Below, piece by piece: positions 3,310 through 24,000 of a stretch of 24,228 nucleotides of DNA. The notes under the pieces were generated by a model, which was not told where the DNA came from, did not search any database, and worked only from the letters and a program-made list of their open reading frames with translations. Position 1 is the first letter of the stretch. Every line of letters begins with the position of its first letter. The stretch is from a virus. Where the stretch lies: the IMG/VR virus record IMGVR_UViG_3300006844_000229, positions 1 to 24,228 of that record, one strand, 5' to 3'. The position numbers and the translations under genes were made by a program.

Positions 3310-3312
3310 TCG

Positions 3313-3337
3313 CTTCACTAATTGAAGGGCCAACAAA
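3313..3337 (+). promoter_or_regulatory. Hairpin leader directly before the nozzle start; copy of a dispersed 25-base element
   Basis: The short gap between the adaptor and nozzle genes can fold into a 5-bp stem (CTTCA/TGAAG) with a CTAAT loop, followed by GGGCCAACAAA and then the GTG start. Twenty-two of its 25 bases match the opposite strand at 22314-22338. The GAAGGG part can serve as the ribosome-binding site, 8 bases or so before the GTG. The function of the repeat itself is unknown. Confidence 0.45.
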
Positions 3338-4999: not shown

Positions 5000-5005
5000 T
5001 GAAGA

Positions 5006-7254: not shown

Positions 7255-7265
7255 GAGGTAATACG

Positions 7266-7994: not shown

Positions 7995-8007
7995 TGGAGA
8001 AAGTGAG

Positions 8008-8547: not shown

Positions 8548-10214
8548 TGCCATTCGTCGATCTTGGTGCTCAGAGGGCTCAGCGGGCCGCGCAGATACTC
8601 CAAATGATGAACGAGATGCGCGCTCGCTCGGGGAAGCGCCCGTCGGCACTCGACGAGCTGAACAAGGAGTACGAGGAGCTAAAGCGTAAGCGGGCGGAGG
8701 AGGCTCGCCAGGAACGGGACCTCGAGTCTACTCTCAAGACTCGGCAAGGTGGTCTGGACATCCAGGGGTGGTCGGCCGGCCGGAAAGAGATCCACGACGC
8801 CGAGGACGCAGCGCGGGCGGAGGAACTGGCACGCAAACAGAAGGCGCACATTGATGCCCAGACTGAGGCATCAAGGGCCAGTGCTGGGGCCAGTCGCCAG
8901 AGCATTGAGGAGTCAAAGGCTCGCACGGGAAAGGTCGAACTTGAGACCGAGGGCGAGAGGAAAGACCAGAAGACCAAGGCTACCGAGCAGCAAATCAACC
9001 GGGCTCGGGACATCGAGAACGATGCAATTCGCCGGCTCTCGATGGGTGAGACACTGACGGTAGCAGACACGGATGCCCTGCAGGATGCCCGACGGCTCCT
9101 AACTGGCAACCCTAGCTACACGATTCCTCGGAAGCCAGATGGCGTGTGGGATGCACCAAAGAACGTCGCGCGGGGTATGCTGGATAAGAGCGGCATACCT
9201 ACCACCAAGTACGGGGAGGGCATCGAGAAGATCGAGCGGCCCAAGTCCAAGTACGGTCAGTTGGTCGACGATGCACTTGATGCCCGTGAGCGGAGCCACA
9301 ACGATCCATATGTGATGGCTCTGTACGAGGATAAGTTCTTCAAAGAGAATGCCCTGAACAGGAACCAACTCGAGTGGCGCATGTCGAAGAAGTTCATCGA
9401 CGCGGGCGACTACGAGGGTGCGTCCAAGATCATCGGGGGCCTTGCGCAGATCAAGAGCACCAAGGCGAACGGGGCAAAGCTCCCGAGCGTCGAGGAGCGC
9501 CAGGAGTTCGCGCGCCAGGCACGGCTGGTCAAAGAGATGGACGACATGCAGAAGGAGTTTGACCGACTGGTCAACGACGGGAAGATGCCTGTCGGTGCCC
9601 TAAAGCAACCTTTCTACAAGCTGCTGTCCATCATGGAAGGCGACAACCCTGAGGTGACCTCCTTCATCAAGAAGGTCGAGCAGATGAAGGGTGAGTACCT
9701 GTTGTACCTGTCGGGCCGTGCAGCGACGGACGCTGAGCGCGATGACCTCAACAACAGGATACCCACGATCTTCGATAGCCCACAGACGTTCAGGATGTCG
9801 TTGCCCCAATTCAAGGACAAGGTCACGGAGGACATGTCGATCGACGCAGGTATCCTGCACTCGTTCGGCCTGAAGGCCCCCGAAGGCATACCGATCCTCG
9901 ACCCTGGCACGATCATGAAGCGGGACGGGAAGCTCCCGGATTTGATCCTTGACAGTGGGTACTACATTCCCGGCGATATGGCCGCAAGACAGGTCCAGGG
10001 CATAGGCATCATCGGTGGCAATGGGAGCGTGAACGTGGGGGGCACGGGAGAGTTCCGCCAGAAGACTGCCCCGAGTGAGCAACTGGGTGAGTCAACGGAA
10101 TTTCCCAGTGCAGCCCCCAGCACGCTGCCCGCTCCGACCAAGCTGGACCCAATCGAGCGGAACACACTGCAGCGTGAAGCTGACGACCTCGAGCGCCAGT
10201 TGGGGATAAAGTGA
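8547..10214 (+). CDS. Large coiled-coil internal virion protein (555 aa)
   Basis: I chose the ATG at 8547 because it overlaps the previous stop (TAATG); an in-frame ATG at 8505 would lie inside the preceding gene. Residues ~10-190 are extremely charged and alternate Glu, Lys, Arg and Ala, as in a long coiled coil (ELNKEYEELKRKRAEEA and following). The rest is mixed helical with a compact C-terminal region around GGNGSVNVGGTGEF. There is no enzymatic motif and no membrane segment. The size, position and composition fit a podovirus inner-core or ejection protein that leaves the capsid with the DNA. The stop overlaps the next start. Confidence 0.6.
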   Translation: MPFVDLGAQRAQRAAQILQMMNEMRARSGKRPSALDELNKEYEELKRKRAEEARQERDLESTLKTRQGGLDIQGWSAGRKEIHDAEDAARAEELARKQKAHIDAQTEASRASAGASRQSIEESKARTGKVELETEGERKDQKTKATEQQINRARDIENDAIRRLSMGETLTVADTDALQDARRLLTGNPSYTIPRKPDGVWDAPKNVARGMLDKSGIPTTKYGEGIEKIERPKSKYGQLVDDALDARERSHNDPYVMALYEDKFFKENALNRNQLEWRMSKKFIDAGDYEGASKIIGGLAQIKSTKANGAKLPSVEERQEFARQARLVKEMDDMQKEFDRLVNDGKMPVGALKQPFYKLLSIMEGDNPEVTSFIKKVEQMKGEYLLYLSGRAATDAERDDLNNRIPTIFDSPQTFRMSLPQFKDKVTEDMSIDAGILHSFGLKAPEGIPILDPGTIMKRDGKLPDLILDSGYYIPGDMAARQVQGIGIIGGNGSVNVGGTGEFRQKTAPSEQLGESTEFPSAAPSTLPAPTKLDPIERNTLQREADDLERQLGIK

Positions 10215-12403: not shown

Positions 12404-12698
12404 TTTCGATACCCCCTGGGGGTGCCACGTTCACGTAATCTGCTCTTGCGGCAAAGAGTTCTGTCAACCCATAAAGAGACGCCGGTGGGTGTTCTGCCCA
12501 CAGTGCCACGCTAGCGAGGAGATAGTCACCCTGCTAACGGAGGCCGGGGACAGATACCCACCGGAAGATCCTAACGTTCCGCCGCCACTGGATTCTTCAA
12601 TGGGTGAAGCGCCAACTATTCCTCCCCGACCCAGATATAGGTGGAAGGATGCGATTCGTCGCGCTTCACCATCCCGCTCTCGATTAACGTCTCCATGA
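12387..12698 (+). CDS. Small zinc-ribbon protein, last rightward gene (103 aa)
   Basis: The ATG lies 17 bases inside the end of the previous gene with only a weak ribosome-binding site. The N-terminal half has ICSCGKEF (C19, C21) and FCPQCH (C37, C40), a likely zinc ribbon. C26 is an alternative ligand. The C-terminal half is Pro-rich then Arg/Ser-rich. Codon choice is normal up to about 12615. The last 83 bases overlap the end of the leftward ATPase gene in antisense, so the final ~27 residues may be a by-product of a missing stop. The function is unknown. Confidence 0.6.
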   Translation: MKLHSSFDTPWGCHVHVICSCGKEFCQPIKRRRWVFCPQCHASEEIVTLLTEAGDRYPPEDPNVPPPLDSSMGEAPTIPPRPRYRWKDAIRRASPSRSRLTSP

Positions 12699-13755
12699 TC
12701 ACCTTGAGCTGGTCAGCCCTGCAGGGGTAGAGCTTCCGGAGAACCTCACTATGCCCGACACGCCTAGCCCTTCTGATAAACGTCGCGGCCCGGCTAAGGT
12801 AATTCGTCTGCTGATCCCCTCCTATCTCAGCGAAGGCGTGCGGAGCGTTCCCTTCAACCGTTTCAACAGCCCGCAGGGCACCATCCAGGAAACCCTCGTC
12901 GATTTCCTTCGACAGACACGAGCCAGCGAGCACCATCGCTACTCTCAGCACGTGATCGTGCTTCCGTCCCCACATCCCCTCGAGCCGCTTGTCGGCCGGG
13001 GGCTCCATGTTGTTGTACCAGTTCGTGTACCACTCCCGAGCACCTGGTGTGAGCTTGAACTCACCCTCGAGCTCTCCGATCCTCGACATGATCGCAACCA
13101 GCTCAAGTCGTAGATCCTCGTCCTCAGCCGTCAGCTCAGGCAACGCATTGCGCCTAGGAGTATCTCCTTGATAGACAAAGAGTACCCGCGACGCAAAGCC
13201 CTCGAGCAGCGCGCTTGGTGGAATGCCCTGCGCTACCCCGTCGGGAGTAGTGGCGGCGATGATGCAGAGGAACAGATCCTTGAGGAGGACCTGGCCCTTG
13301 TTCTTTGTCTTGTAGGCCCACTCCTTCGGGCAGTCGTACATGTCGGTCAGGATGTGGATGAGCGGTTCACCATACTGCTGCTTGGTCAAAAACACGCTGA
13401 GTTCACCCGAATGAACAAGGATATTCGGAGCAAGCTGACTGCCCTCGTCCGGTCGAATCTCCTCGATGAAACGCTCGGGGGTGATCTTCCCGGCGATCAC
13501 ACGGGTCGTGGTAACCCCTTTGAGCAGATCGACTCCAATGTTAATCGCTGTCGACTTCCTACACCGGGCAGACCCAGCCACCAAGATCGTGAACAAGTTC
13601 GGGAATAGTCTGTAATAGCCCCGGTTGATAAAGCACTTCCGCCCCAGGGCCGCGGCAACCACGGTCATCCCTACCCACAGGTGGAAGTCGTCCGGCGACT
13701 CCTGCTTGCTTGTGTACTTGAGGTAGAGCCTGAGGAAACTCTCCTCAAGCATCAT
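12616..13755 (-). CDS. DUF3987-like P-loop ATPase, putative replicative helicase (379 aa)
   Basis: The pattern FHLWVGMTVVAAALGRK, then PNLFTILVAGSARCRKSTAINIG, resembles DUF3987/YfjI-type phage ATPases, which often sit beside polymerases as helicase components. The Walker A is GSARCRKS (residues 61-68), with Arg in place of the usual last Gly. A Walker B-like strand is DLFLCIIAATTPDGV. The last ~70 residues look like a winged helix. I placed the start at 13755 (ATG, right after GAGGTGG) rather than at an in-frame TTG 12 bases upstream; the ATG at 13752 is also possible. It overlaps the upstream gene by 11 bases. No primase is seen in the window. The helicase role is inference. Confidence 0.65.
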   Translation of the reverse strand: MMLEESFLRLYLKYTSKQESPDDFHLWVGMTVVAAALGRKCFINRGYYRLFPNLFTILVAGSARCRKSTAINIGVDLLKGVTTTRVIAGKITPERFIEEIRPDEGSQLAPNILVHSGELSVFLTKQQYGEPLIHILTDMYDCPKEWAYKTKNKGQVLLKDLFLCIIAATTPDGVAQGIPPSALLEGFASRVLFVYQGDTPRRNALPELTAEDEDLRLELVAIMSRIGELEGEFKLTPGAREWYTNWYNNMEPPADKRLEGMWGRKHDHVLRVAMVLAGSCLSKEIDEGFLDGALRAVETVEGNAPHAFAEIGGDQQTNYLSRAATFIRRARRVGHSEVLRKLYPCRADQLKVIMETLIESGMVKRDESHPSTYIWVGEE

Positions 13756-14053
13756 CCACCTCGTCAAAGCACAGGTACTCTACGATGATCCTCTTCATTA
13801 AGCACTTTGGTACATCATCCCGGAGCAAGTCAGCCATCTTTGTTACTGGATGTTTGTGTCCTTTGGCGCAGATGAAGTTGTTCGGTAGCTTGGTTCTTCT
13901 GTTTATGGGTTCTACCCTTACCAGCCCCTCCGGTCCGGGGGCGGGGGGCGGGGTGGCGGTGGGGTGGGGCTGCGGAAGAAGCGCTACCGCATCTCTAAAG
14001 GTTTCTTCCCCGACGCTTTCCTTTATCCTTAACAGGAGTTCGAACGTTTCCAC
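13745..14053 (-). CDS. Hypothetical protein with Pro-rich linker (102 aa)
   Basis: The start is GTG with GGGAGGT 5 bases upstream. The N-terminal helix (TFELLLRIKESVGEETFRDA) is followed by a Pro-rich linker (PQPHPTATPPPAPGPEG) and a C-terminal part with FICAKGHKHPVTKMAD and a later Cys, which could bind metal. The linker is encoded by the C-rich complement of the G-run at 13937-13969. No family is recognised. It lies between the polymerase and the ATPase, so a replication-accessory role is possible but unproven. Confidence 0.65.
   Translation of the reverse strand: METFELLLRIKESVGEETFRDAVALLPQPHPTATPPPAPGPEGLVRVEPINRRTKLPNNFICAKGHKHPVTKMADLLRDDVPKCLMKRIIVEYLCFDEVDDA
13937..13969 (+). other. 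G-quadruplex-type G-run on the rightward strand
   Basis: The rightward strand has G5, G6, G4, G2, G2, G4 and G4 runs separated mostly by single bases. This is the template strand of the leftward 102-aa gene and encodes its Pro-rich linker. Such runs can fold into a quadruplex on single-stranded DNA and slow polymerases. Confidence 0.6.
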
Positions 14054-14141
14054 CTTTGACCTCCCTCAGGACTGCATACTCAGCCGGTTTGACCTGCCGT
14101 ATTATGCATACTCCGCTCGGTGTCTTGATCTTGAGATCCAC
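13995..14141 (-). CDS. Possible small overlapping gene (48 aa, basic)
   Basis: An open frame starts at a GTG with GGAGG 4 bases upstream, a stronger signal than many here. It encodes VDLKIKTPSGVCIIRQVKPA and ends in a basic KDKGKRRGRNL tail. It overlaps the polymerase C-terminus (62 bases) and the start of the next gene (59 bases) in different frames. The overlapped polymerase end looks low-complexity, so the small frame may be the one under selection. No family is recognised. It could be chance. Confidence 0.4.
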   Translation of the reverse strand: MDLKIKTPSGVCIIRQVKPAEYAVLREVKGGNVRTPVKDKGKRRGRNL

Positions 14142-16437
14142 TTGTCCTCCATTTGCTGAAGTCTGGTAGTGGTTGATCGAGGAAAACCTCGTGCAGATCC
14201 CCCCAGCTATAGCCGATCTTCAGCTCTACCGGTATAGTAATGGTCCCTCCCCATGTCTCAACTGGCGTTGTCATCGCAGAGTGCAGAGCTACCAGCGATT
14301 GGAGCGCGTCCTCTTCGGGGACTTCGTTGACGATCGAATCGTGTACCTGTGCGACAACGTGGTAGCCCTGCTTGACGAGTTTCCTAACTCCCTGATTCGT
14401 CACCGATACGATAGAGGACTGCGGCCTCTGAGCAAATGCCTTACGGAAGAGGTCCTCATCCATGCGGTCCAGAAACAGCCTTCGTCTCCCGAACGCATCG
14501 TGCACACATCGAGTGGCTCTAACGATACCGCGGATTCGAGGATACCAATTATCTCGGAGTTCCGGAGCAAGGGCGTGGTATGACTCGATGAGGAACTCCG
14601 CCTTCTGCTTCGCACCCCAGATGCCTCTGACTTCGACGTCATCTACGTTAATCCCCGCCAGCCTCAGCAGTATGATGAGCTTCTTCCAGGCCATCCCATA
14701 GTTGCTCGCATGAGTGACCGTCTTGAACGTCTTGTAAAGCACCTCGTCGCTCTTGGTAACGACCTTGTGCAGTGTGCGCGTCGCGAACGCGCAGTACGGA
14801 TTGATCGTGGGATCCGTGTACAGCTTCTGCAGGCTTGGCGACTGGCTGTCGAACGCTACAAACATCGCCTCGGCCCGCATTAGATCCCCTTGTATCAGGA
14901 TGTGACCAGGCGCCGCTACAAACACCTTCCTGGCACGCATCGGGATGTTCTGCAGCTGGGGCCCCTGGCCTCTGCCCCTGCTACTTAAGCGGCCCGACTT
15001 AGTTCCATGGATCAGATAGTTAGCCTTGTACCTACCACCCTCGTCTGTCCGCATGCTAAGGAACCCGCTGAGCATGGTGCGGCGCTCGCGGATCTCTAGG
15101 ATCTGTCTGAACACCGGCGCGTGCTGCGCGCTGTCGTAGCTCAGCTTCCTAAGGGTATCCTCGTCTGTGCTAGGTAGCCCACCCTTCGTTGTCTTGAGCT
15201 TGGGTAGCTTGAGCACGTCATGCAGCAAGTACCTCAGGTCAGGCCCGCTCTTGACATTGATCTCGAACCCGACCATTTGGTTCAGCTGGAGCTGGAGGTA
15301 TTCCCTCTCTAGCTCCATGCGTGTCCTAGCGGTCTCGAGAGCCGGCTGATCTATAACGAACCCTTCGTCCTGCATTGCCATGATCGGTCTGATCAAGGTC
15401 ATGACGTGCTGATCGAAGTATCTAGTCTGCTCTGCTCTTTCCAGCTCAGCCTTGAGACCTAGGTAACACTCATACGTACACGCTGCGTCCTTGCAGTTAT
15501 ACTCCCACAGATTCGTGCTGGACTCATGCTTGTAGTATGGCTCCTCGGTGTAGATAGATACGATGAACCCTAGGTCGTGGTCGAACTCCGGGTAGAGGAG
15601 GTGATGGGCGAGCATCGTATCAAACGTAATGCGCGGGAAAGAGAACCCGTACCTTTCAAGCCTCGTGACGTCGAACTGGATGTTCTGTCCAATGATTCCC
15701 CTGGATCGAAAGAGACGGTCGAGTTTACGCCATACGTACGCAAGCTCGCTAGTTGAGAGACGACCTCCTCTAAACGGGATACATATTGCCCTGGAGGGAT
15801 CGTCAGAGATACCGACACACGTAGGATAGTCCAGCCCGATTGTTTCGATGTCCACCGATATAGGGTCGCCAAGGCCGTCGAGATAGCTAACAGTTTCCTC
15901 AAGCCCGGCGTTAATCGTGAACTTGCGGTGAGGTCTATTGATATGCGGAGAGGCTGCTTCACGTCGTGCCCTCCTTAGGTCGTGCTCGATGATTCTAGTG
16001 AGGGGCCAGTCTCGCAGGGCAGCAGCAGTGTGATATATACCGAGCACCTTTCGGCCTGGCACCAGAGTACATGGCAGGACAGATCCTCGCCATTGCTCAA
16101 TTGATGGCTTACCAGTAAGCGCATAGAGTGCCTGAGCCCCGACGGCGATGAAGAGGTTGGCGCTGGTTGCTGCAAGTTCATCCCGCAGAGCGGGCAATAC
16201 TTCAGCAATTTCGGTGGGGGTTGGGACCGTGTGAGCATCGCTGTAATCCCTCCTTACATTAGTGACGTAGCACTCAGCACGTGAGACACCGGCCAGCCTC
16301 CAAAGCAAATCGCCGGAGGGGCCTGAGAACGGACGGCGGGTGTAGCACTCGTCCATTCCAGGCCGCGCTCCGACGAACGCTATCTGGCAGGCAGGTGTCC
16401 CGCTAGGTGGGACTACCTTGCCGTGCAGATTGCTCAT
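14080..16437 (-). CDS. Family A DNA polymerase with N-terminal uracil-DNA glycosylase-like domain (785 aa)
   Basis: Residues ~15-155 resemble the UDG superfamily: FVGARPGMDE (23-30), RRPFSGPSGDLLWRL, TNVRRDYSD, and GIYHTAAAL in place of the HPS-type motif. Family-4 Cys residues for an Fe-S cluster are not seen. A 3'-5' exonuclease follows: DIET (D196, E198), NIQFD (D256) and YNCKD (Y313, D317). The polymerase has motif A GDLMRAE (D518, E523), motif B YKTFKTVTHASNYG (K572, H576, Y580), and motif C QVHDS (H699, D700). The usual Arg four residues before the motif B Lys is Tyr, the usual Phe after it is His, and HDE is HDS. The exonuclease and polymerase carboxylates are intact. It is the likely replicative polymerase. 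Whether the glycosylase domain is active is not known. Confidence 0.93.
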   Translation of the reverse strand: MSNLHGKVVPPSGTPACQIAFVGARPGMDECYTRRPFSGPSGDLLWRLAGVSRAECYVTNVRRDYSDAHTVPTPTEIAEVLPALRDELAATSANLFIAVGAQALYALTGKPSIEQWRGSVLPCTLVPGRKVLGIYHTAAALRDWPLTRIIEHDLRRARREAASPHINRPHRKFTINAGLEETVSYLDGLGDPISVDIETIGLDYPTCVGISDDPSRAICIPFRGGRLSTSELAYVWRKLDRLFRSRGIIGQNIQFDVTRLERYGFSFPRITFDTMLAHHLLYPEFDHDLGFIVSIYTEEPYYKHESSTNLWEYNCKDAACTYECYLGLKAELERAEQTRYFDQHVMTLIRPIMAMQDEGFVIDQPALETARTRMELEREYLQLQLNQMVGFEINVKSGPDLRYLLHDVLKLPKLKTTKGGLPSTDEDTLRKLSYDSAQHAPVFRQILEIRERRTMLSGFLSMRTDEGGRYKANYLIHGTKSGRLSSRGRGQGPQLQNIPMRARKVFVAAPGHILIQGDLMRAEAMFVAFDSQSPSLQKLYTDPTINPYCAFATRTLHKVVTKSDEVLYKTFKTVTHASNYGMAWKKLIILLRLAGINVDDVEVRGIWGAKQKAEFLIESYHALAPELRDNWYPRIRGIVRATRCVHDAFGRRRLFLDRMDEDLFRKAFAQRPQSSIVSVTNQGVRKLVKQGYHVVAQVHDSIVNEVPEEDALQSLVALHSAMTTPVETWGGTITIPVELKIGYSWGDLHEVFLDQPLPDFSKWRTSGSQDQDTERSMHNTAGQTG

Positions 16438-16445
16438 GATCTATC

Positions 16446-17891
16446 TCATTCAGCAACGACCGGGGGCTGAGGCTCGCCAGCAGGTTCAGGATCAACCACT
16501 GGCGGAACGTCAGATACCGCCTCACTCGCCAGATCACGCGCCACACGATCCACCGCGCTGCGATAGAAGTCCTGATGCTTCTCGATTCCGATGAACTTAC
16601 ATCCCAGCTGAGCCGCTGCAACGAGCGTGCTTCCGCTACCGGCGAAGGGATCAAGTACCACCTCTCCCTTGACGGCTGACGCTTCGACGAGGTGTCGCAT
16701 GAGCGCGACGGGCTTCTCGACGCTGTGGATCTTCTTTCCGACGGTGTCATACTTGAGCACGTTGAACGCCTGTGGCTTGACCAGGACACGGCCCCGGTTC
16801 ACCCAGAAGCAAGGTTCATAGCTGTAGATCCAGGTCCTCGTTGGGTCCCCGATACCTGTGGTCTGCTTGACCCAGATCAGTGGTGTCGCCTCACACTCCC
16901 CGAAGTGCCGCTTGAGCATGAGGTACACGGGCTCGTACCTGGTCATGTGGAAGAAGATGTACGCATGGCCGTCAGGCTTCAGCAGCCGAGCCGCGTGCAT
17001 GAACGTCTCGTCCAGCATGTCCATGATCGTCTTCGGATCGTCGTCGTACATGGCACCTTGAGACTCAGCGAACTTGCTGCTGCTCATTGAGGTGCCTTCT
17101 TTGTAGAGACCAATACCGTAAGGCGGGTCAGTGACAATAAGGTCGATAGAGTTTGCTGGCAGGCCGCGCAGTACATCACGTGCGTCTGCGTGGTAGAACA
17201 CACCAATCCCTCGCCAGACGGCCTTACGGATGGCTTGCCTGACGAACGTGGGTTCTTCCTTTGCTTCGCCTTCTTCGGGGACTTCTTCTTCGTCTTCACT
17301 GAACTGCCCATGGTCTACCCCCGGCGTGCGCTTGGCGAGCTCCTGTCGCAGAGCTGTCTCCTTCAGGCGTCGGAACCTTTTGAAGGCGGAGGACTTCGTC
17401 TTTTCCTCCACGAGATCCGGGTATTCCTGGAGCGCTTTGGCGAGTGCAAGATCCATGCTGATTGACCCGGTAGCACGGTCCAGCTCCCGGGCGGCCTCTT
17501 CGATCCCGTAGCCTCCATTCTCGGAGAGGGGGTTACCTTTTTCGCCATAGCGTGCCTGCTTTGCCATGTACAGTTTGTAGAGTCCAACGACCTCTTCCTG
17601 CCACTCGAGATCCTTCCGCCTGATGTTCTCCTCGAGCTCGAGTTCCTGGCGTGCGATGGGATCGAGGGCCGTCATCCTACGGTACGGGATGTCCAGCCAC
17701 CCGAGGCTCTTGGCTGCCAGTATGCGTCGGTGCCCTGCGATCAGGTTGTTGTCATCATCGAGGACGACGGGGGTCATGAGCCCGAACCGGGCGAGGCTCG
17801 AGGCAAGCTCGTCGATGTTACCGAAGAACTTGCGCATGCGATGCTTCTCGCCGACCGTGATGTCGGTGATGTTTATTCTCGGTTCATCCAT
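16446..17891 (-). CDS. ParB/Srx-domain and N4/N6 DNA methyltransferase fusion (481 aa)
   Basis: I chose the ATG at 17891 because it overlaps the upstream stop (TAATG) with GGAG upstream; an in-frame GTG lies 15 bases earlier. Residues ~5-140 are ParB-like, with GHRR (53-56) and LEENIRRKDLEWQEE. An acidic linker (EDEEEVPEEGEAKEE) follows. Residues ~230-450 are a beta-class methyltransferase with DPPY (255-258) before the SAM motif DPFAGSGST (414 onward). DPPY implies amino methylation of A or C. Phages use such enzymes to protect their DNA from restriction or to mark it, and the ParB part may set DNA contact. The ParB part resembles ParB proteins that hydrolyse CTP, but activity is untested. 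No partner endonuclease is seen. Confidence 0.92.
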   Translation of the reverse strand: MDEPRINITDITVGEKHRMRKFFGNIDELASSLARFGLMTPVVLDDDNNLIAGHRRILAAKSLGWLDIPYRRMTALDPIARQELELEENIRRKDLEWQEEVVGLYKLYMAKQARYGEKGNPLSENGGYGIEEAARELDRATGSISMDLALAKALQEYPDLVEEKTKSSAFKRFRRLKETALRQELAKRTPGVDHGQFSEDEEEVPEEGEAKEEPTFVRQAIRKAVWRGIGVFYHADARDVLRGLPANSIDLIVTDPPYGIGLYKEGTSMSSSKFAESQGAMYDDDPKTIMDMLDETFMHAARLLKPDGHAYIFFHMTRYEPVYLMLKRHFGECEATPLIWVKQTTGIGDPTRTWIYSYEPCFWVNRGRVLVKPQAFNVLKYDTVGKKIHSVEKPVALMRHLVEASAVKGEVVLDPFAGSGSTLVAAAQLGCKFIGIEKHQDFYRSAVDRVARDLASEAVSDVPPVVDPEPAGEPQPPVVAE

Positions 17892-18103
17892 TACTTCTTC
17901 TCCCACGGCTTCTTAGCCATCAGATCGCAGAGGATCTCGACCTGCTTCATGACCGTCTTTTGGGTCGGGAAGCTCTTGATGGCATTCGCCACCCGCTTCT
18001 CGTCGTTGGTCTCGATCCCCGCTATGAGCTCCGCACACCCATCCTCGACGTCGATCATCACGTCTCTGATTGCCGCGAGTTTGTCCTCAGGCTTCGTCTT
18101 CAT
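17891..18103 (-). CDS. Small hypothetical protein (70 aa)
   Basis: I chose the ATG at 18103 because GAGGTGG lies 4 bases before it; a longer frame from 18157 runs into the structured leader. The product is helical and acidic-basic mixed (MKTKPEDKLAAIRDVMIDVE, then KSFPTQKTVMKQVEILCDLM). There is no motif and one Cys. The stop overlaps the methyltransferase start (TAATG), so the two are probably translated together. The folded leader at 18118-18185 sits directly upstream and could control it. Function unknown. Confidence 0.65.
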   Translation of the reverse strand: MKTKPEDKLAAIRDVMIDVEDGCAELIAGIETNDEKRVANAIKSFPTQKTVMKQVEILCDLMAKKPWEKK

Positions 18104-18117
18104 AGTCCACCTCGTTT

Positions 18118-18185
18118 GGATGCCTGACGGCCCCGGGGAGGGACTGCTGGGGGGCAACAGTCTAGTTTGGAACCGCCAGGCATCC
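18118..18185 (-). promoter_or_regulatory. Folded leader: outer 13-bp stem, inner 8-bp hairpin, possible pseudoknot
   Basis: In the leftward RNA, 18173-18185 pairs with 18118-18130 over 13 positions with one G-U pair. Inside, GACUGUUG pairs with CAGCAGUC (one G-U) around a CCCCC loop. A GGGG run follows and could pair with that loop as a pseudoknot. No U tract follows, so it is not an intrinsic terminator. It starts 8 bases after the SSB stop and ends just before the ribosome-binding site of the next gene, as expected of a processing site or translation-control leader. Confidence 0.5.
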
Positions 18186-18192
18186 TGCTAGG

Positions 18193-18588
18193 CTACGCCT
18201 TCGAGTAAGGCGGATTCACCTCGGCCCTGATGGCCGTGGGGTCCGCGTTGTCGGGCTTGTGGTTCACGGTCACGTACACTTCCCTGCCCGCGAAGTCCTC
18301 GACGTGGAATCCGCTGGTGTTGAAGGGGATCTGTGCCGCCTTGAGGAACCGCTTCATGTTCCACATGGCGTTCGGGTGGAAGCTCAGGGTCAGGAAGAGC
18401 TGGCGGTTCCTGAACTTCTCATCCACCTCGAGAGGCGTGAGCCGCACGTCGATGTACGGGTACTCGCTGCCCTCCTTGTGCTTCTTCTGCGCCGACTTGA
18501 CCCGGCACAGCTGGAGGCCCGCGGGGATGGGATCGGACCCATCGTCCACGTCGTCCAGGTTGATCTGAATGAAGTCAGCTTCCGACAT
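18193..18588 (-). CDS. DUF669-like single-stranded DNA-binding protein (131 aa)
   Basis: The ATG at 18588 follows GGAGGT by 5 bases; an in-frame TTG upstream is ignored. The protein has an acidic N-terminus (NLDDVDDGSDPIPAG), an OB-like beta body (LCRVKSAQKKHKEGSEYPYIDVRLTPLEV, QLFLTLSFHP, MWNMKRFLKAAQIPF), then FAGREVYVTVNHK. This is the shape of DUF669-type phage proteins that coat single-stranded DNA during replication and recombination. It sits close to the Sak4-like ATPase, its usual partner, and upstream of the polymerase. Its leader carries two hairpins. The family call is by pattern. Confidence 0.7.
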   Translation of the reverse strand: MSEADFIQINLDDVDDGSDPIPAGLQLCRVKSAQKKHKEGSEYPYIDVRLTPLEVDEKFRNRQLFLTLSFHPNAMWNMKRFLKAAQIPFNTSGFHVEDFAGREVYVTVNHKPDNADPTAIRAEVNPPYSKA

Positions 18589-18601
18589 TGCTACCTCCAA
18601 T

Positions 18602-18641
18602 GGCCTGCTACCGCAGGCCGGTTAAGCCCGGCGTACCGGGC
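18602..18641 (-). promoter_or_regulatory. Two adjacent hairpins in the SSB leader
   Basis: In the leftward RNA, a 6-bp GCCCGG/CCGGGC hairpin with a UACG loop is followed by six bases and then a 7-bp GGCCUGC/GCAGGCC hairpin with a GGUA loop. The second ends 3 bases before GGAGGT of the SSB gene. No U tract follows either. They may set RNA cleavage, stability or ribosome access. The gap from the HNH gene stop to the SSB start is 63 bases and holds nothing else I can see. Confidence 0.5.
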
Positions 18642-18651
18642 GTGAAAGCGT

Positions 18652-18852
18652 TTACCTTCCTCGCTTGTGCCATACCTGGTGAGTGTACCGATCGGTAAGA
18701 ACCAGGTTTGATGGCTCAATGTTGTAGGCGTCGCCGTCCACGTGATGGATTATCTCATCTTTCCTGAGTCTTCGGCCGATCCTGGCCTCCACCAAGTGGC
18801 GAGCGTGCTTCCTTACGACCGTTTCGCTCACATTGTAAGTCTTGAAGGCCAT
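18652..18852 (-). CDS. Small HNH endonuclease (66 aa)
   Basis: The protein has a helical HARHLVEARIGRRLRKDE segment, then IIHHVDGDAYNIEPSNLVLTD and a later His (YTHQVWH). This is the HNH pattern H-H-x-x-G-D-x-x-x-N-x-x-x-x-N-L-x-L, with the metal and catalytic His and Asn present. It is short, but free-standing phage HNH nucleases of this size exist and often move as homing elements. There is no clear ribosome-binding site at the ATG, and the same frame is open upstream into the ATPase gene end, so a longer form cannot be ruled out. Its insertion between the ATPase and the SSB fits a mobile gene. Confidence 0.8.
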   Translation of the reverse strand: MAFKTYNVSETVVRKHARHLVEARIGRRLRKDEIIHHVDGDAYNIEPSNLVLTDRYTHQVWHKRGR

Positions 18853-18898
18853 GACCGGCGCGATGATGATTTTCGACTTTTGACGCGGTGCAGCGTAC

Positions 18899-19672
18899 CT
18901 ACGCGAAGATCTCCGGCCCCGCTAGCGTTTCCGGGTCGAGCCGACGCGAAGTACGCGCTGCTGCCCCGTTTGCAGTAACAGTCTGCAGCTTATACTTCCC
19001 CGATCGTTCGCGCCCAGATAGCCAGTAGGCCTCTGTGAAGAATCTGACGAGGTTATCTCCCATTTGACCAGCCACGGAGGGTCGGATAACGTCTTGTTTA
19101 GTGTCTTCATCAGTTCTTCGCTTTTCGTGAGCGATGACGATTCGATCACAAGGGAGAGTAAGAAACCCATTTAGGTACTCCATCATTCCAGCGAGGTAGA
19201 TTCCCCAAAGCCGCTCGGTCATGAACGACACTCTGTGCGTGTACATGAGCAACCTGGACCAATGGTCGCCTACGGCCGTCAGGGTGTCGAGGACGACACA
19301 ATCGTAATCGAGCCCCTCTGGCTCTCGAGCCTGCTTCAGTAGGTCGTTCGTCACGGCCACGAGCTTCTCGTACCCGAGGGGCTTCTTCGCCGGGATGGTC
19401 CCCGCTTGTACGTTCTTGGGATCCGGGCTCCACGGGATCTCGATGCGGTCAGGATTACCGAGAGGCTCCCCCGGGCGCCATACCTTGATGGCCTCGCGGC
19501 CAGGTAGGACTTCCATCTCGTGTAGCTTCTGATCGACGTCGAGCCAGAGCTTGCGCTTCCCGGGGTGCATCGCTGCTAGGGTCGTCTTGCCGGCCCCGGC
19601 TGGGCCATAGAACAGATATGACCGGGTAGTGCCGCTGCTTGGGATGCTGACGATGTTCTCGAGTTCACTCAT
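18899..19672 (-). CDS. Sak4-like RecA-fold ATPase (257 aa)
   Basis: Walker A is GPAGAGKTT (residues 23-31). Walker B is YDCVVLDT (D129 at the end of the strand). A later IVIAHEKRR, RPSVAGQMGDNLVRFF and an AARTSRR motif complete the AAA_24/Sak4 pattern. Such phage proteins bind single-stranded DNA, help strand annealing or recombination, and work with an SSB; a DUF669-like SSB gene lies just downstream. The start (ATG at 19672) lies inside the end of the miniprotein gene before it, an 8-base overlap that suggests coupled translation. The length is typical of the family. Confidence 0.82.
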   Translation of the reverse strand: MSELENIVSIPSSGTTRSYLFYGPAGAGKTTLAAMHPGKRKLWLDVDQKLHEMEVLPGREAIKVWRPGEPLGNPDRIEIPWSPDPKNVQAGTIPAKKPLGYEKLVAVTNDLLKQAREPEGLDYDCVVLDTLTAVGDHWSRLLMYTHRVSFMTERLWGIYLAGMMEYLNGFLTLPCDRIVIAHEKRRTDEDTKQDVIRPSVAGQMGDNLVRFFTEAYWLSGRERSGKYKLQTVTANGAAARTSRRLDPETLAGPEIFA

Positions 19673-19787
19673 CGTCCTTCACCGCTCCCGTCCCGTTGCA
19701 GTCCTCGCAGTCCTTGTCGTTGCCGCACTCGCCGCACTCAACTACCCCGGTGCCCCCACACTCCTCGCAGTCCTTAGTCTTTGCCAT
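19665..19787 (-). CDS. DnaJ-type zinc-finger miniprotein (40 aa)
   Basis: This short gene has a GGAGG 6 bases before the ATG at 19787 (an ATG one codon earlier is also possible). Its sequence is almost all metal motif: CEECGGTG, CGECG, then CEDCNGTG. CxxCxGxG repeats are the DnaJ central zinc-finger type. It overlaps the gene before it by 14 bases and the ATPase start after it. It may be a stand-alone zinc finger for protein or nucleic-acid binding. No J-domain is present. Confidence 0.7.
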   Translation of the reverse strand: MAKTKDCEECGGTGVVECGECGNDKDCEDCNGTGAVKDDE

Positions 19788-19977
19788 CATCGTCCTCCAG
19801 GTAGCCGAAGCCACCGCAATGCTCGCACCGTTCGTTGTCGAAGACTCCGCTGCCGCCGCATACGGGGCATTCCTCTGTGTCGTCTTCCTGCTTGCGTACC
19901 TTGTATGCCACGTGGAAGCGTCGTATCACTTCCTCGAGGCCATACTCCTCGATCAGCTCCGCAAGGGTCTCACTCAT
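19774..19977 (-). CDS. DnaJ-type zinc-finger protein with N-terminal helix (67 aa)
   Basis: The ATG at 19977 follows GAGGAG by 5 bases. The N-terminal ~35 residues are helical (LAELIEEYGLEEVIRRFH). Then come CPVCGGSG and CEHCGGFG, two CxxCxGxG repeats forming one zinc site. It is the second of two consecutive genes of this type. The role is unknown. Similar short proteins occur in phage early regions, where they may work with the neighbouring nuclease or ATPase. The start overlaps the nuclease stop by 8 bases. Confidence 0.75.
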   Translation of the reverse strand: MSETLAELIEEYGLEEVIRRFHVAYKVRKQEDDTEECPVCGGSGVFDNERCEHCGGFGYLEDDDGKD

Positions 19978-20875
19978 CTTCACTCCTCGGCTCCCAGGGC
20001 ACGACCTCGTATGCTGTCTTCTTCAGCGTCTCCCGTGTCTGGGCAGCGGCTATGCAGAGTGGATAGTAGTCGCAGATCCGGTTGTACGCCCCGCACGCGA
20101 AGGGTGCGGCCTTGGGCCAGAAGCCTGTCTCTCGCATCTCGCTGATGGTGCGCCCGACGTACTGAACCTCACGTTCCCACTGATCGAACTCCTCGGGTGT
20201 CCGGTGGGTAAAGATCCTGGCGAAGCTGTCGTCGCTGATCTTGGTGGTCACCCGTATAGCGTTAGACATAGCCGAGTGGATCTCCCGGCCAGTGAGTTCG
20301 CTGGCTCCCCGCATGTACCCGGTGAACTGGCCCGACAGCTTGAAGCCCGCATCGAAGACCATACCAAAGCGGGTGGTGGTCTTGTGGTCCACGGTCATCG
20401 CGGTGCCCTCGTAGTCCACGATCAAGTCGATGCGACCGATGTACTTGAACGTCGAGTGAACCGTGGTCAAGTAGATCTCAAAGGGCTTCTCAACCGCGAG
20501 CACCCTGAACGGGTCGCGCCTCCACTTGGTCAGGTAGGTTGCGAGAATCTCGAGACCGCGATCAACCGTTCGGATCTCCTTGGGATCTTCGGGATCGTCG
20601 GTGTAGTTAGCTAGGAACAGGGCGCTGAGGCGCGGGATCTCTACTCCCTTACAGTAGAAGCAACCCTGGTCACACAGTGGGCACTTGACTTTGTCGAATC
20701 CAATGCCCTTGTAGAGAGCCTCTAGGGACTTGTGTATCGCGCCTCCGAACATAAGGGCCGACTGTCGTTTGGCGTCTGCGGGCACGAGGTGTTCCTCGTA
20801 CCGATATGCATACTTTTGCGGGCATAGGTTGAACGCCTCGATCTTCGAAGAATCCAACCAAAACTCGTCCCCCAT
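19970..20875 (-). CDS. RecB/Cas4-like PD-(D/E)XK nuclease with Fe-S-type cysteines (301 aa)
   Basis: GGAGGT lies 5 bases before the ATG. The order is SSKIEAFNLCPQKYAYRY (C18), GGAIHKSLE (H48), VEKPFEI (E129), YIGRIDLIVDY (D150), TVDHKTT (D163, K165) and QFTGY (Q183, Y187), the PDDEXK_1 nuclease pattern. C261, C268 and C274 near the end, with C18, fit the 4Fe-4S site of Cas4/AddB-type nucleases. A CPLCDQGCFYC knuckle (C65, C68, C72, C75) is inserted after the H48 helix. In phages these proteins resect or cleave DNA ends during recombination. No cas genes are nearby. The catalytic residues are all present. Confidence 0.85.
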   Translation of the reverse strand: MGDEFWLDSSKIEAFNLCPQKYAYRYEEHLVPADAKRQSALMFGGAIHKSLEALYKGIGFDKVKCPLCDQGCFYCKGVEIPRLSALFLANYTDDPEDPKEIRTVDRGLEILATYLTKWRRDPFRVLAVEKPFEIYLTTVHSTFKYIGRIDLIVDYEGTAMTVDHKTTTRFGMVFDAGFKLSGQFTGYMRGASELTGREIHSAMSNAIRVTTKISDDSFARIFTHRTPEEFDQWEREVQYVGRTISEMRETGFWPKAAPFACGAYNRICDYYPLCIAAAQTRETLKKTAYEVVPWEPRSEDE

Positions 20876-20895
20876 TCGTCACCTCCCCAGGTGCG

Positions 20896-21156
20896 TTAGT
20901 CATCACCCATTGCCTCGCGCATCTGGTCAATGTTGTCGTTCATGTCCTCCACGCACTCGGCACAGATGTTCCCGAGCGTCGTGCTCAGCACGATGGGCGC
21001 TGCCTTGCAGCACGCGTCACATACTTCCTCGGTCGTCTTGTTCAGCTTGACGAACAAGGAGGCTGCAAGCCACAGCATGTCGTTGATCGGCAGCTCGACG
21101 TGGCCGGTCCAGTCAAGCAGCTCCATCTCGCGCATGATCTTCGCCGCCGAGAGCAT
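20896..21156 (-). CDS. Small zinc-binding hypothetical protein (86 aa)
   Basis: The ATG at 21156 follows GGGGAG by 4 bases; a longer in-frame region upstream overlaps the previous gene in another frame. The N-terminal half is helical. CDACC (C46, C49, C50) and ICAEC (C65, C68) form a likely zinc site, followed by an acidic helix. No named family. It lies directly before the nuclease gene and is probably in the same transcript. Confidence 0.65.
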   Translation of the reverse strand: MLSAAKIMREMELLDWTGHVELPINDMLWLAASLFVKLNKTTEEVCDACCKAAPIVLSTTLGNICAECVEDMNDNIDQMREAMGDD

Positions 21157-21157
21157 T

Positions 21158-21427
21158 CTACTCCCCAAAGAGGTCGTCCCGCCATGTCCGTTTTGCGGGG
21201 TCTTTTGGTGGTTTCTTTTCATCGAGTCGCTTTGGTTGCCGAGGCGTTTTGCTGTTGGGTACTCGGACTGCTTGGAGTTCGGTGATGGCGGAGATGAGTT
21301 CTTCATCGGTCATCTCATTCGGCGATTTCCCCATTCGCAACTGCCTTTCAAATTGGCGGTAGTAGTGGATCTCCGCTGTCGTGGTCCCGTAGGGACGGGG
21401 GCCGTTCACTGTCTCCCAGAGAATCAT
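21158..21427 (-). CDS. Hypothetical early protein (89 aa)
   Basis: The ATG at 21427 is preceded by GAGGGG about 8 bases away. The product is basic and helical, with SPNEMTDEELISAITELQAVR in the middle and a Lys/Pro-rich tail (KRLDEKKPPKDPAKRTWRDD). No motif or known family. The stop is two bases before the next start. The coding frame is supported by its tight spacing to both neighbours. Confidence 0.6.
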   Translation of the reverse strand: MILWETVNGPRPYGTTTAEIHYYRQFERQLRMGKSPNEMTDEELISAITELQAVRVPNSKTPRQPKRLDEKKPPKDPAKRTWRDDLFGE

Positions 21428-21446
21428 ACCCCCGTCCCCCTCAGGA

Positions 21447-21740
21447 CTACAGGCCCAGGGACTCGAGGTACTGAGCGCGCTTGCGCTCACGCGGCTCGGT
21501 CTCGGTCTCCTTCTGCAGCTTGGCGCGCTCGACGCCCTGCAGGTACACCACGTGGGCATTGATGAACCGGCGGAATACCGCCTTGTCACCAAGCAACGCG
21601 ACCGCGTCGCCAATGGACGCGGGGAGTTCGGCCTCGAAGTCCTGCTCGGACTTGTCGTCACCCTTCCCGGTGCTCACTTTCAGGGTAACGGTCTTGACCT
21701 TCGCCTCGTGCTTGTCTGGCACTTGAATCACACTCGCCAT
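21447..21740 (-). CDS. Hypothetical early protein (97 aa)
   Basis: AAGGGG lies 4 bases before the ATG. The product begins with a beta-rich MASVIQVPDKHEAKVKTVTL, a DFEAELPAS strand and a helical DAVALLGDKAVFRRFINAHV, then a charged Glu/Arg-rich C-terminal helix. It has no Cys, no signal peptide and no known motif. A hairpin (21755-21773) precedes its ribosome-binding site. Function unknown; it could be a DNA-mimic or regulator, but nothing shows this. Confidence 0.65.
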   Translation of the reverse strand: MASVIQVPDKHEAKVKTVTLKVSTGKGDDKSEQDFEAELPASIGDAVALLGDKAVFRRFINAHVVYLQGVERAKLQKETETEPRERKRAQYLESLGL

Positions 21741-21754
21741 GTTTCCCCTTTTCT

Positions 21755-21773
21755 GGCTGGTTCAAATCCAGCC
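21755..21773 (-). promoter_or_regulatory. Hairpin before the ribosome-binding site of the 97-aa gene
   Basis: A perfect 6-bp stem (GGCTGG/CCAGCC) encloses a 7-base loop. Read rightward, the loop and stem look like a tRNA T-arm (GGTTCAAATCC). No tRNA body exists on either side. In the leftward transcript it lies just before AAAAGGGG and the ATG, like the other leader hairpins here. The 75-base gap holds no gene. Confidence 0.4.
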
Positions 21774-21815
21774 TCGGTTAGATACCCCTTTTAGTAGCAA
21801 TCGGCGTGCCAAGGA

Positions 21816-22259
21816 TCATGGACGGGCGCAGGTCTTGGTATTGACTAGACCAACCTGCGCGCGTAGGGCTACCCTAAGCCGACGCAACAATGGGAACAAC
21901 ACAGCATTCCCCGTGATAGTGGGATCTACTGAAATCTCGGGTGTGATCTGGTACTCTGACCAGGTGAGCTGGCCCGGGGTCGTGCGCTTGGTTACGACGC
22001 GAGCGCCCGTGGGCACCTTGATGTGTAGATCTATCTGCTGCATGATCTCCCGCCGAATGGTGTCTAGCTCCAGTTGTAGTGTTGGATCAACTAGACTGCA
22101 GATCACTTGCGCTAGATGGAACATCTCTACCTGGGCCATACGGTATTGTTCAATTAGCTCCAGCGTCCTGCGCTGCCGTGGCAAGTGCCCATAGTGCTGG
22201 CGCAGGGCGCGGAACCGGCCGATGGATATCTCGAGTAGTGTCTCCCTAGATAGTATCAC
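21816..22259 (-). CDS. Hypothetical protein (147 aa)
   Basis: The start is GTG, with AGGTG 8 bases or so upstream. The N-terminal ~85 residues are helical with many Leu, Arg and Gln (RFRALRQHYGHLPRQRRTLELIEQYRMAQVEM, then LELDTIRREIMQQIDLHI). The C-terminal part is shorter and mixed, with TKRTTPGQLTWSEYQITPEISV. No recognised family. It is the first gene after the folded element at 22286-22403, which could terminate or attenuate transcription into it. Confidence 0.6.
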   Translation of the reverse strand: MILSRETLLEISIGRFRALRQHYGHLPRQRRTLELIEQYRMAQVEMFHLAQVICSLVDPTLQLELDTIRREIMQQIDLHIKVPTGARVVTKRTTPGQLTWSEYQITPEISVDPTITGNAVLFPLLRRLRVALRAQVGLVNTKTCARP

Positions 22260-22285
22260 CTTCTTTCACCTGCCTTTCGTAGAAC

Positions 22286-22403
22286 AAAAAAAGGCCCACA
22301 GCCACACCGCCCTTTTGTTGCCCCTTCAATCGGTGAAGGAGCAACGAGCCCGCCTCGCGGGCATTGCGGTTTCTGGCTGTGGGCCAGTGGGCGCCGTGCG
22401 CCC
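22286..22403 (-). ncRNA. Candidate structured RNA: 5' hairpin, three-way junction and U tract
   Basis: Read leftward, a 6-bp GGGCGC/GCGCCC hairpin is followed by a closing stem: GGCCCACAGCCA (22374-22385) pairs perfectly with 22293-22304, then ACCGC with GCGGT. Inside are two hairpins: GCCCGC-GAG-GCGGGC (22348-22362) and a 12-bp stem (22317-22345) with a CCGAU loop. The only irregular pair in the long stem is U-G leftward but would be C-A rightward. Seven U residues follow the closing stem. The 170-base gap (22260-22429) contains nothing else. It could be a small RNA, an attenuator, or an elaborate terminator. No known RNA family is recognised. Confidence 0.5.
22314..22338 (-). repeat. Second copy of the dispersed 25-base element
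   Basis: On the leftward strand this reads CTTCACCGATTGAAGGGG then CAACAAA. It matches the nozzle leader at 3313-3337 at 22 of 25 positions, and both form a CTTCA/TGAAG hairpin. Here it forms much of the long arm of the three-way junction element. Confidence 0.5.
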
Positions 22404-22414
22404 GACCTGTTTTT
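22389..22414 (+). terminator. Weak rightward intrinsic terminator-like hairpin
   Basis: Rightward, GGGCGC pairs with GCGCCC around CGT, then GACCTG and five T. The six bases between the stem and the T run make it a poor terminator. It would act only on rightward transcripts, and no rightward gene precedes it. Confidence 0.2.
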
Positions 22415-22429
22415 CTACGTTTACACTAT

Positions 22430-22924
22430 CTACCTCAGCTTACTCAGTGCTACTGAACCAAGACCCGTTAAACGGCCCCGGGAATCAACCAGTCCCCTAT
22501 ATACGCAGACTGCCTGAGCGACTGCCATCGTGCTAGGGTCGAACTTATCTAGGCCCTGGAGCACCGCAAGCTCCTCTGGGCTGAGTTTCTTGTTTGGCCC
22601 GAGGGACCAGGTCTGGGCCCGGACCTCGCTACACAACATGAAGCATAGCAAGTCACGTCGCCGGCCGCGGAGCGTTGGTAGGGCCACAACGACCGTGCTG
22701 CTATCGAGCTTGACGGGCTTGCTGTCACGTAGCATCCACCTCTTTACGCTGTAGTCGGTGATATCTATTACCTTGAATCGTAGTCGGGAGGAACCACTGT
22801 ACTTGCTAGCTAGAACCTGAACCTCTGGCGTAGAGATCAGCCAGACGAATCGGCCCTGGTAGCCGATCCGCCGGCAGATCTCCCGCATCACGTCTTGCCT
22901 CCTGTAGACGGATACGGCGTTCAT
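22430..22924 (-). CDS. Hypothetical protein (164 aa)
   Basis: I chose the ATG at 22924 because it lies one base after the upstream stop; an in-frame GTG 21 bases earlier is an alternative. The product has a helical RRQDVMREICRRIG start, a beta-rich middle (GRFVWLISTPEVQVLAS, RLRFKVIDITDYS, STVVVALPTLRG) and a helical C-terminal third (SPEELAVLQGLDKFDP). It has no catalytic motif. Its stop is followed by the structured element. Function unknown. Confidence 0.6.
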   Translation of the reverse strand: MNAVSVYRRQDVMREICRRIGYQGRFVWLISTPEVQVLASKYSGSSRLRFKVIDITDYSVKRWMLRDSKPVKLDSSTVVVALPTLRGRRRDLLCFMLCSEVRAQTWSLGPNKKLSPEELAVLQGLDKFDPSTMAVAQAVCVYRGLVDSRGRLTGLGSVALSKLR

Positions 22925-22925
22925 G

Positions 22926-23267
22926 TTAGATGAGCTTGCCACCACTCTTGGTAATAACGAGGGCCGTGAACCGCACGAGCAACGCGGCGCACGGGATGGA
23001 TGCGATGTGCGGCATATCGTGCTCGTCGATCATGTGCTGTACGAACCAACTCGTGGCTGTGACAGCCGGTTGAACCAGCGCTCCCTTCCCATCGAGGATT
23101 GCCTGGTACCAGCATGACATGAAGTGGTACAGGAACTCCCCCGTGTGATTCATGTGCTGTAGATCGCTGCCACAGTGGGCGACGATAAGCTCGGCCGCGG
23201 CATTGATGGCATGGGTGTGCAGCGGCTCGAGCTCCATCCAGTCGTCGTTGAAGTACATCTCCTCCAT
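22926..23267 (-). CDS. Hypothetical protein (113 aa)
   Basis: I chose the ATG at 23267 because AGGAGGGG is just upstream; the longer frame to 23483 is a shadow of the previous gene. The product is rich in His, Met and aromatic residues (THAINAAAELIVAHCG, HMNHTGEFLYHFMSCWYQ, QHMIDEHDMPHIAS) and mostly helical. The His/Asp-rich helices could bind metal, but no known motif fits. Position in the early operon is the only context. Confidence 0.6.
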   Translation of the reverse strand: MEEMYFNDDWMELEPLHTHAINAAAELIVAHCGSDLQHMNHTGEFLYHFMSCWYQAILDGKGALVQPAVTATSWFVQHMIDEHDMPHIASIPCAALLVRFTALVITKSGGKLI

Positions 23268-23268
23268 C

Positions 23269-23523
23269 CTACCCCTCCTGGCAAATAGACTGTAGGTCTT
23301 CGATGATTGCCTTCCGAATAACCTGCTGGTCCTCCAACGAGAGCTTTGTGATCTCTGCCTCCTCCTCGAGGTCGAATACTCTGTAGTTGAAGACCAACTC
23401 ATCGGGCATGAGTTCGCCTTCGTCGTTGAGATCCCCGTCCTGGATGTAGTGGTCATGAAGCTGCACCAGGACGGGGCGCCCATTGAGCTCTACTGTCAGA
23501 TCAATTGACAACCAGAAGCTCAT
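23269..23523 (-). CDS. Hypothetical protein (84 aa)
   Basis: AGGAAG precedes the ATG, which overlaps the upstream stop (TAATG). The N-terminal half is beta-rich (FWLSIDLTVELNGRPVLVQLHDHYI), and the C-terminal half is acidic and helical (DLEEEAEITKLSLEDQQVIRKAI). No family is recognised. Low pI and small size are common in phage early proteins that bind host factors; that is only a suggestion. Confidence 0.6.
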   Translation of the reverse strand: MSFWLSIDLTVELNGRPVLVQLHDHYIQDGDLNDEGELMPDELVFNYRVFDLEEEAEITKLSLEDQQVIRKAIIEDLQSICQEG

Positions 23524-23666
23524 TACTTCCTGAGCAGCTTTTCCCGCTGCTTCTTGCCGGCCCGGAGGACCTTCTCGTTGAAGGAGAGCTTGTCGTACTT
23601 GGCCTGCCGGGCCTCGGCCTGGGCATTCCTCTCAGCGACGCGGCCGGGGAAGTTCATGCGCTTCAT
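23523..23666 (-). CDS. Small basic hypothetical protein (47 aa)
   Basis: The ATG at 23666 overlaps the upstream stop (ATGA) with GGAGGG three bases before; the ATG at 23657 is also possible. The product is highly basic and helical (RVAERNAQAEARQAKYDKLS, then KVLRAGKKQREKLLRK). It has no motif. Its tight coupling to both neighbours supports it being real. Confidence 0.55.
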   Translation of the reverse strand: MKRMNFPGRVAERNAQAEARQAKYDKLSFNEKVLRAGKKQREKLLRK

Positions 23667-23851
23667 ACGCCCTCCGGCCGCCGGCGGGAGAAGCTGATCG
23701 TCCCCTTGTCGATGCGTAGGGTCCAGCCGCAGTCCTTGTCCATGCAGACCCACGCCTTGTACATCACGGACCCGCCGGAGTCTCCCCCGAAGTCACTTAG
23801 GGGGAGAACCACGTGCTCGCCGCACCTCGGACACTTCGGAAACTCTACCAT
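23663..23851 (-). CDS. Small zinc-ribbon protein (62 aa)
   Basis: Three ATGs in a row follow GAGGAGG; the third (23851) has the best spacing (6 bases), while the second overlaps the previous stop. CPRCG (C7, C10) and CMDKDCG (C36, C41) form a likely zinc ribbon with a WTLRID strand. The Arg-rich end (SFSRRRPEG) could touch nucleic acid. No named family. Confidence 0.65.
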   Translation of the reverse strand: MVEFPKCPRCGEHVVLPLSDFGGDSGGSVMYKAWVCMDKDCGWTLRIDKGTISFSRRRPEGV

Positions 23852-23853
23852 CA

Positions 23854-24000
23854 TCATCCTCCTCTTTTGTGACAAGCGATGCACGTCCGGCATCGCCCGC
23901 CTGGCTTCCACCGATTGGGGTGGAATTCCGTTAGCGGCTTAAATACTCCGCACTTGCGACAGTATCGCTGTAGTATTTTTAGAATGAATGTGCCGATCAT
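23854..24000 (-). CDS. Zinc-finger miniprotein (48 aa)
   Basis: The ATG at 24000 overlaps the stop of the upstream gene (ATGA), and the stop overlaps the next gene's starts. It has CRKCGVFKPLTEFHPNRW then CRTCIACH: C14, C17, C37, C40 and C43 in a pattern common in phage zinc-finger or HNH-associated proteins (CxxCG-x-KPLxEFH...CRxC). No HNH catalytic core is present. It probably binds DNA or RNA. It is easily missed because of its length. Confidence 0.7.
   Translation of the reverse strand: MIGTFILKILQRYCRKCGVFKPLTEFHPNRWKPGGRCRTCIACHKRGG

Follow-up and report, generated by a model that had tools for sequence, protein, structure and literature searches.

Several kinds of dispersed phage site and structured phage RNA have been described with which the present locus can be compared. 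Stoperators are 13-bp sites that are bound by the phage repressor and have a role in transcription regulation, and the packaging pRNA of phage phi29, about 120 nt long, forms a three-way junction. Bacterial intrinsic (rho-independent) terminators and attenuators are formed by a G+C-rich stem that runs directly into a U-tract, and are found upstream of part of an operon. Within the mycobacteriophages, the stoperators of cluster A have been named as dispersed phage sites, and the phages of cluster K contain the SAS and ESAS, short repeats that occur genome-wide, many of them only a few bases before start codons (PMC3203893). The SAS is an asymmetric 13-mer, GGGATAGGAGCCC, found mostly in one orientation; some of the cluster K SAS/ESAS have inverted repeats, the function being left unresolved in that study (PMC3203893). 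The put element of phage HK022 is an antiterminator of about 70 nt located downstream of the early promoters, whose RNA, part of an early phage transcript, forms two stem-loops side by side, binds the beta' zinc-binding domain of RNA polymerase and acts on termination (PMC9378689).

The locus considered here occupies positions 22286-22403 of the window, by which is meant the whole stretch of DNA that was analysed; it is an entire virus record, 24,228 bases long, classed as linear and probably a fragment. Like bacterial intrinsic terminators and attenuators, the locus has a G+C-rich stem followed directly by a U-tract and lies upstream of part of an operon, but unlike them it has 69 bases and two hairpins between the arms of the stem, one of the hairpins being a copy of a dyad that is dispersed through a group of phages. 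The dyad copies resemble stoperators as dispersed sites and possible blocks to elongation; stoperators are bound by a repressor, whereas no repressor common to the phage group of the dyad was found. With the SAS/ESAS the dyad shares its character of a short sequence dispersed through the genome, but it is symmetric, 29-30 bp long, present also between convergent genes and unrelated in sequence, its consensus differing from the 13-bp GGGATAGGAGCCC core. Compared by architecture only, the element and the HK022 putRNA both have two adjacent hairpins in an early phage transcript, although put is without an enclosing terminator-like stem and U-tract. The phi29 pRNA is likewise a phage three-way junction of about 120 nt, but the element belongs to a phage with a PolA-type replication module, has a fold that is not conserved in relatives and, as had been predicted from the letters, matches no RNA family (no Rfam match at gathering score). 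Neither the sequence nor the symmetric two-block design of the dyad is found in the stoperators, the SAS/ESAS or the putRNA. Intrinsic terminators are themselves known, and what is new here is a putative terminator with a structured, dyad-bearing loop.

The folded element and its gene setting

The rightward virion genes of the window span 258-12403 and the leftward genes 12616-23900, the latter set including a primase/helicase, a PolA-type DNA polymerase, a ParB-methylase, an SSB, Sak4 and an exonuclease. The element sits in a gap of 170 bases flanked by two leftward genes without known function, gene A (22430-22945, minus strand, 171 amino acids), which is upstream of it in leftward transcription, and gene B (21816-22259, minus strand, 147 amino acids), which is the first gene past it. 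At 212 bases the gap between the convergent genes (12404-12615) is longer, so that the A/B gap is not, as the earlier note had it, the longest without genes. Downstream of gene B are the exonuclease, Sak4, SSB, methylase, DNA polymerase and primase. The stop codon of gene A lies about 45 nt ahead of the 5' arm of the closing stem, so that ribosomes on gene A should not disturb the stem.

Read on the minus strand, the whole folded element (22286-22403) begins with a 5' hairpin of 6 bp, GGGCGC-ACG-GCGCCC (22389-22403), and continues with a 12-bp, terminator-like closing stem, in which the 5' arm GGCCCACAGCCA (22374-22385) pairs with the 3' arm TGGCTGTGGGCC (22293-22304); the U7 tract (22286-22292) is immediately 3' of this stem. 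Within the closing stem there is an inner helix of 5 bp, formed by ACCGC (22366-22370) and GCGGT (22306-22310), and then two arms, one a 6-bp hairpin, GCCCGC-GAG-GCGGGC (22348-22362), that is not conserved, and the other a 12-bp arm that is the copy of the dyad, GTTG-CTCC-TTCA-CCGAT-TGAA-GGGG-CAAC (22317-22345). All of the stems described in the earlier note, together with the U7, are thus present in the computed fold. On the plus strand an outer 7-bp inverted repeat encloses the element, with CGTAGAA at 22278-22284 and TTCTACG at 22413-22419.

The leftward RNA, from 22403 to 22286, has a folding energy of -76.9 kcal/mol (z -7.9), and none of 200 shuffled sequences was as stable. The closing stem has a pairing probability of 0.99 in three sequence contexts with no competing fold, which makes a riboswitch-like alternative fold unlikely. 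When the 170-base gap was subjected to 1000 dinucleotide shuffles, no inverted repeat of more than 7 bp appeared before a T5, as against the actual 12 bp and T7, and a perfect 12-bp repeat anywhere in the gap was obtained in only two. The plus strand folds nearly as well (-73.1 kcal/mol, z -7.3), the nested palindromes making both strands nearly equally stable, and hence fold stability does not choose the strand. The earlier note had relied on a position that is U-G when read leftward and A-C when read rightward; the position exists, but it is weak evidence for the strand, as it is a single one and falls in an N4 segment, where the repeat family shows no constraint. The leftward polarity itself is upheld, more convincingly, by the stem being followed by U7 and by the leftward genes on both sides.

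A dyad dispersed through a phage group

Relatives were collected from IMG/VR by way of the DNA polymerase, gene A and C97, which gave about 18 useful sequences, seven of them contigs of 46-49 kb; genes in these contigs were called with a simple codon-bias script and their borders are approximate. C97 (21447-21740, minus strand) encodes a 97-amino-acid protein in the replication part of the window and is a very conserved gene of unknown function, its product being 74-95% identical in nearly all relatives and 60% identical in the most distant one. A search of genome contigs for relatives of C97, as a prophage or host test, found none. One contig, G001 (48,059 bases), is probably a near-complete genome because its two ends overlap at the protein level. 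The gene order A-gap-B-C97-D-exonuclease-Sak4 is retained among the relatives. The group has no close isolated members: the best DNA polymerase matches in isolated phages are below 30% identity, a blastn search of isolated phages with the element gave no match, and the capsid proteins of one relative and of Alcaligenes phage vB_Af_QDWS535 share 36% identity.

The dyad has the consensus [GC]T[TA]G-N4-TTCA-N5/6-TGAA-N4-C[AT]A[GC], which is matched exactly at 22317-22345. Two further copies in the window are also intergenic, one at 12588-12616 between convergent gene ends and the other at 3306-3334 in a 28-base gap between two rightward virion genes, making three in all. The core, TTCA-N4..6-TGAA, is present 7-11 times per contig in the seven 46-49 kb contigs, against 0-2 times for a control in which the pattern was reversed, and when up to 2 mismatches are tolerated the full dyad is counted 3-7 times in a genome, compared with 0-0.4 in shuffled sequence; in the more distant relative G015 the full dyad is not enriched. 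Intergenic DNA makes up about 10-17% of most contigs, and 65 of 85 dyad copies (76%) are intergenic. The homologous junctions that carry a dyad copy are those upstream of the terminase, downstream of the capsid gene and between two tail genes, the meeting point of the convergent arms, the A/B gap (where most relatives keep it), the junction that follows a small early gene, and the middle of the divergent early region. Most genomes have a spacer of 5, and G006, G008 and G009 mostly one of 6; over some 60 places in G001-G012 besides the window, which of the two lengths occurs depends mostly on the genome. The exact pattern matched 67 viral stretches, of which none outside the phage group had convincing further copies, and in a limited search of an open-access library the dyad family appears to be undescribed.

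If the dyad is the binding site of a regulator, it would provide a handle on gene timing in these phages. As candidate binders, C97 and the product of gene B were modelled (mean pLDDT 83 and 80, respectively), and since neither had a fold match in the PDB at E <= 0.001, neither was identified as the binder. An XRE-type protein was rejected as a universal binder, the HTH gene being found only in G001 and G002. An origin of replication at the A/B gap was also discarded, as the cumulative GC skew has no turning point there.

DNA palindrome and RNA hairpin at the junctions

Selection for an RNA stem predicts that the flanks of the dyad pair within each copy. At position +-8, over 64 copies, pairing is 0.48-0.51 against 0.42-0.47 expected under independence, and the left base at this position is only G or C at co-directional sites. 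The terminase, tail, convergent and divergent junctions give no excess pairing of the flanks. Because the flanks do not covary at most junctions, the dyad there behaves, on the evidence of sequence, as a protein-bound DNA palindrome would. Pairing is above chance after the capsid gene (p 0.002) and in the early leader (p 0.0002), p values that ignore relatedness, and more weakly so in the A/B gap (p 0.008, relatedness again being ignored), where it is carried by the window, L135 and G012. At two or three junctions, then, the dyad is also an RNA hairpin. Should it work as DNA in some places and as an RNA hairpin in others, nature would here be using a single palindrome at both levels.

Shortly downstream of the small early gene, seven related phages have an RNA composed of an outer helix, an internal loop and a hairpin (L094:12631-12699, L041:6758-6826 and L044:18667-18736 on the minus strand; L112:4077-4145, L048:7912-7981, L139:373-442 and L119:2809-2877 on the plus strand). 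In G001 this early-leader RNA lies about 3.7 kb upstream, past the end of the window. In six genomes the outer helix encloses a dyad hairpin of 12-13 bp, with compensatory changes at 13 of the 24 pairs, and covariation is 0.583 against 0.194 when shuffled and 0.02-0.09 when slid. A model built on these six matched the held-out seventh (L119:2809-2877) with 35 bits and an E value of about 1e-5, and scored better on the transcribed strand in all six genomes. The window fits only the hairpin of this model, R2, in which the dyad hairpin is placed in a 9-bp outer helix with an internal loop; its arm scored 18.9 bits (E 0.19), and as only the hairpin part matches, and weakly, the window element was not filed under R2. 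The early-leader RNA is probably a better RNA candidate than the element at 22286-22403. On its own, a fold seen in a single genome would merit no more than a passing mention, but it pointed the way to a dyad at about seven conserved junctions and to this covarying RNA.

Possible termination and the competing readings

The element had been proposed as a three-way-junction RNA under selection, a view that the relatives do not support; the earlier note had said that it would fall if close relatives lacked the stems, and apart from the dyad they do lack them. In the A/B gap of a dozen or so relatives that keep the gene order, with DNA polymerases 71-85% identical, the closing stem, the 6-bp hairpin and the U7 are all missing, and after gene A, at the place of the 5' hairpin, G001 and G002 have GGGCGCCATGCGCCC. 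An alignment of 11 copies of the homologous site yielded a consensus fold with zero pairs, and no compensatory changes. Scored against itself, a covariance model of the element gives 150 bits; its best foreign match in 615 kb of window and relatives reaches 19.7 bits, and the clear partial matches are copies of the 12-bp dyad arm only. A search of viral contigs for an exact 20-mer of the element produced one match, a chance one inside an unrelated coding region. On these comparisons the three-way junction as a whole is private to one phage.

The chances seem about even that the element is a lineage-specific leftward intrinsic terminator or attenuator, with the dyad in its loop, at the border between the early small genes and the replication operon. 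The 12-bp closing stem would be the terminator helix, followed by U7, and the loop would enclose two hairpins, one of them this phage's copy of the dyad that the group keeps at A/B and at about six other gene junctions. Polymerase would terminate here, although only in part or under regulation, because no separate promoter is visible for the replication genes downstream; full termination would starve them, so that either partial termination or relief by a factor would be needed. A dyad-binding protein, of the phage or of the host, may take part, and the dyad in the loop would be a natural place for a relief factor.

The G+C-rich stem passes directly into the U run (12 bp, U7, no gap), and its length and U-tract are similar to those of the plain hairpin terminators of the group. 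The sequence between the arms exceeds the short loop (about 3-10 nt) of an intrinsic terminator, and a simple terminator scan with loops of 3-8 does not list the element, which by its anatomy would be a terminator in all but loop length and not a textbook member of the class. Plain terminators, with a G+C-rich stem of about 10-14 bp and then T5-T8, are found after an early rightward gene in six relatives (G001 oriented 45608; G002 2055; G004 31745; G006 24389; G008 25125; G010 7188). Against termination stands the presence of the terminator in one genome only, the relatives managing without it at the A/B junction, and it may therefore be neutral or recent. Moreover, it would cut the expression of essential replication genes unless overcome, and a search for an antiterminator fold or factor found none.

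A scan of the A/B gap revealed no visible sigma-70-like promoter. TTGACA-N17 promoters with A-tracts do occur in the early regions of relatives, and the strong sigma-70-like promoters there suggest that the early region is transcribed by the host polymerase. Strong examples (A-tract, CTTGACA, N17, TANNNT) are at 24629 in G008, 4863 and 46402 in G010 and 22618 in G006, all in oriented contigs. The earlier note had offered a small RNA or an attenuator of the downstream genes; the attenuator half still stands, its position about 27 nt before gene B and leading into the replication operon being a fitting one, whilst a free small RNA gains no support.

It is possible, though doubtful, that only the DNA dyad is functional, as a protein-binding palindrome of the stoperator or operator kind, and that the RNA folds only as a side effect of inverted repeats lying one within another. 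Such an explanation accords with the retention of the dyad at the A/B junction in most relatives when all other stems are lost, with symmetric half-site conservation in which G/C at +-8 does not covary (0.51 observed against 0.47 expected), and with the lack of a pairing excess at the TerL, tail-gene, convergent and divergent junctions. It does not account for a perfect 12-bp closing stem joined to U7, and the above-chance pairing at A/B within the group, driven by three genomes, also speaks against it.

Rather unlikely is an arrangement in which the dyad is a phage-specific start point (a promoter or activator site) within the terminator loop, such that early read-through would stop at U7 and dyad-started transcripts, without the 5' arm, would pass. 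If true, the terminator would shield the replication operon from early transcription and its control would pass to a dyad-binding factor; an early-to-middle switch of this kind would be new. A phage small RNA, processed or separately transcribed and ending at U7, would suit the very stable fold and the terminator-like 3' end; it is quite improbable, since the gap shows no promoter, Rfam gives no match and the fold is not conserved. The same phages have a conserved, covarying RNA on the same dyad at another junction, which lends something to the idea of a conserved structured leader acting in cis on gene B through the three-way junction, but the relatives share only the dyad stem at A/B and their consensus fold has no pairs, and such a leader is very improbable. 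A small MITE-like insertion bounded by the 7-bp repeat CGTAGAA/TTCTACG would explain nested inverted repeats in one genome only, but is extremely unlikely: neither the window nor about 600 kb of relatives has a second copy, a clear target duplication is lacking, and the core is the dyad common to the relatives.

An integron attC was also rejected, the GTT...AAC of the element being in the wrong order. Read rightward, the 5' hairpin is followed after a few bases by T5 (22388-22404, plus strand), so that a weak rightward terminator-like site overlaps the element.
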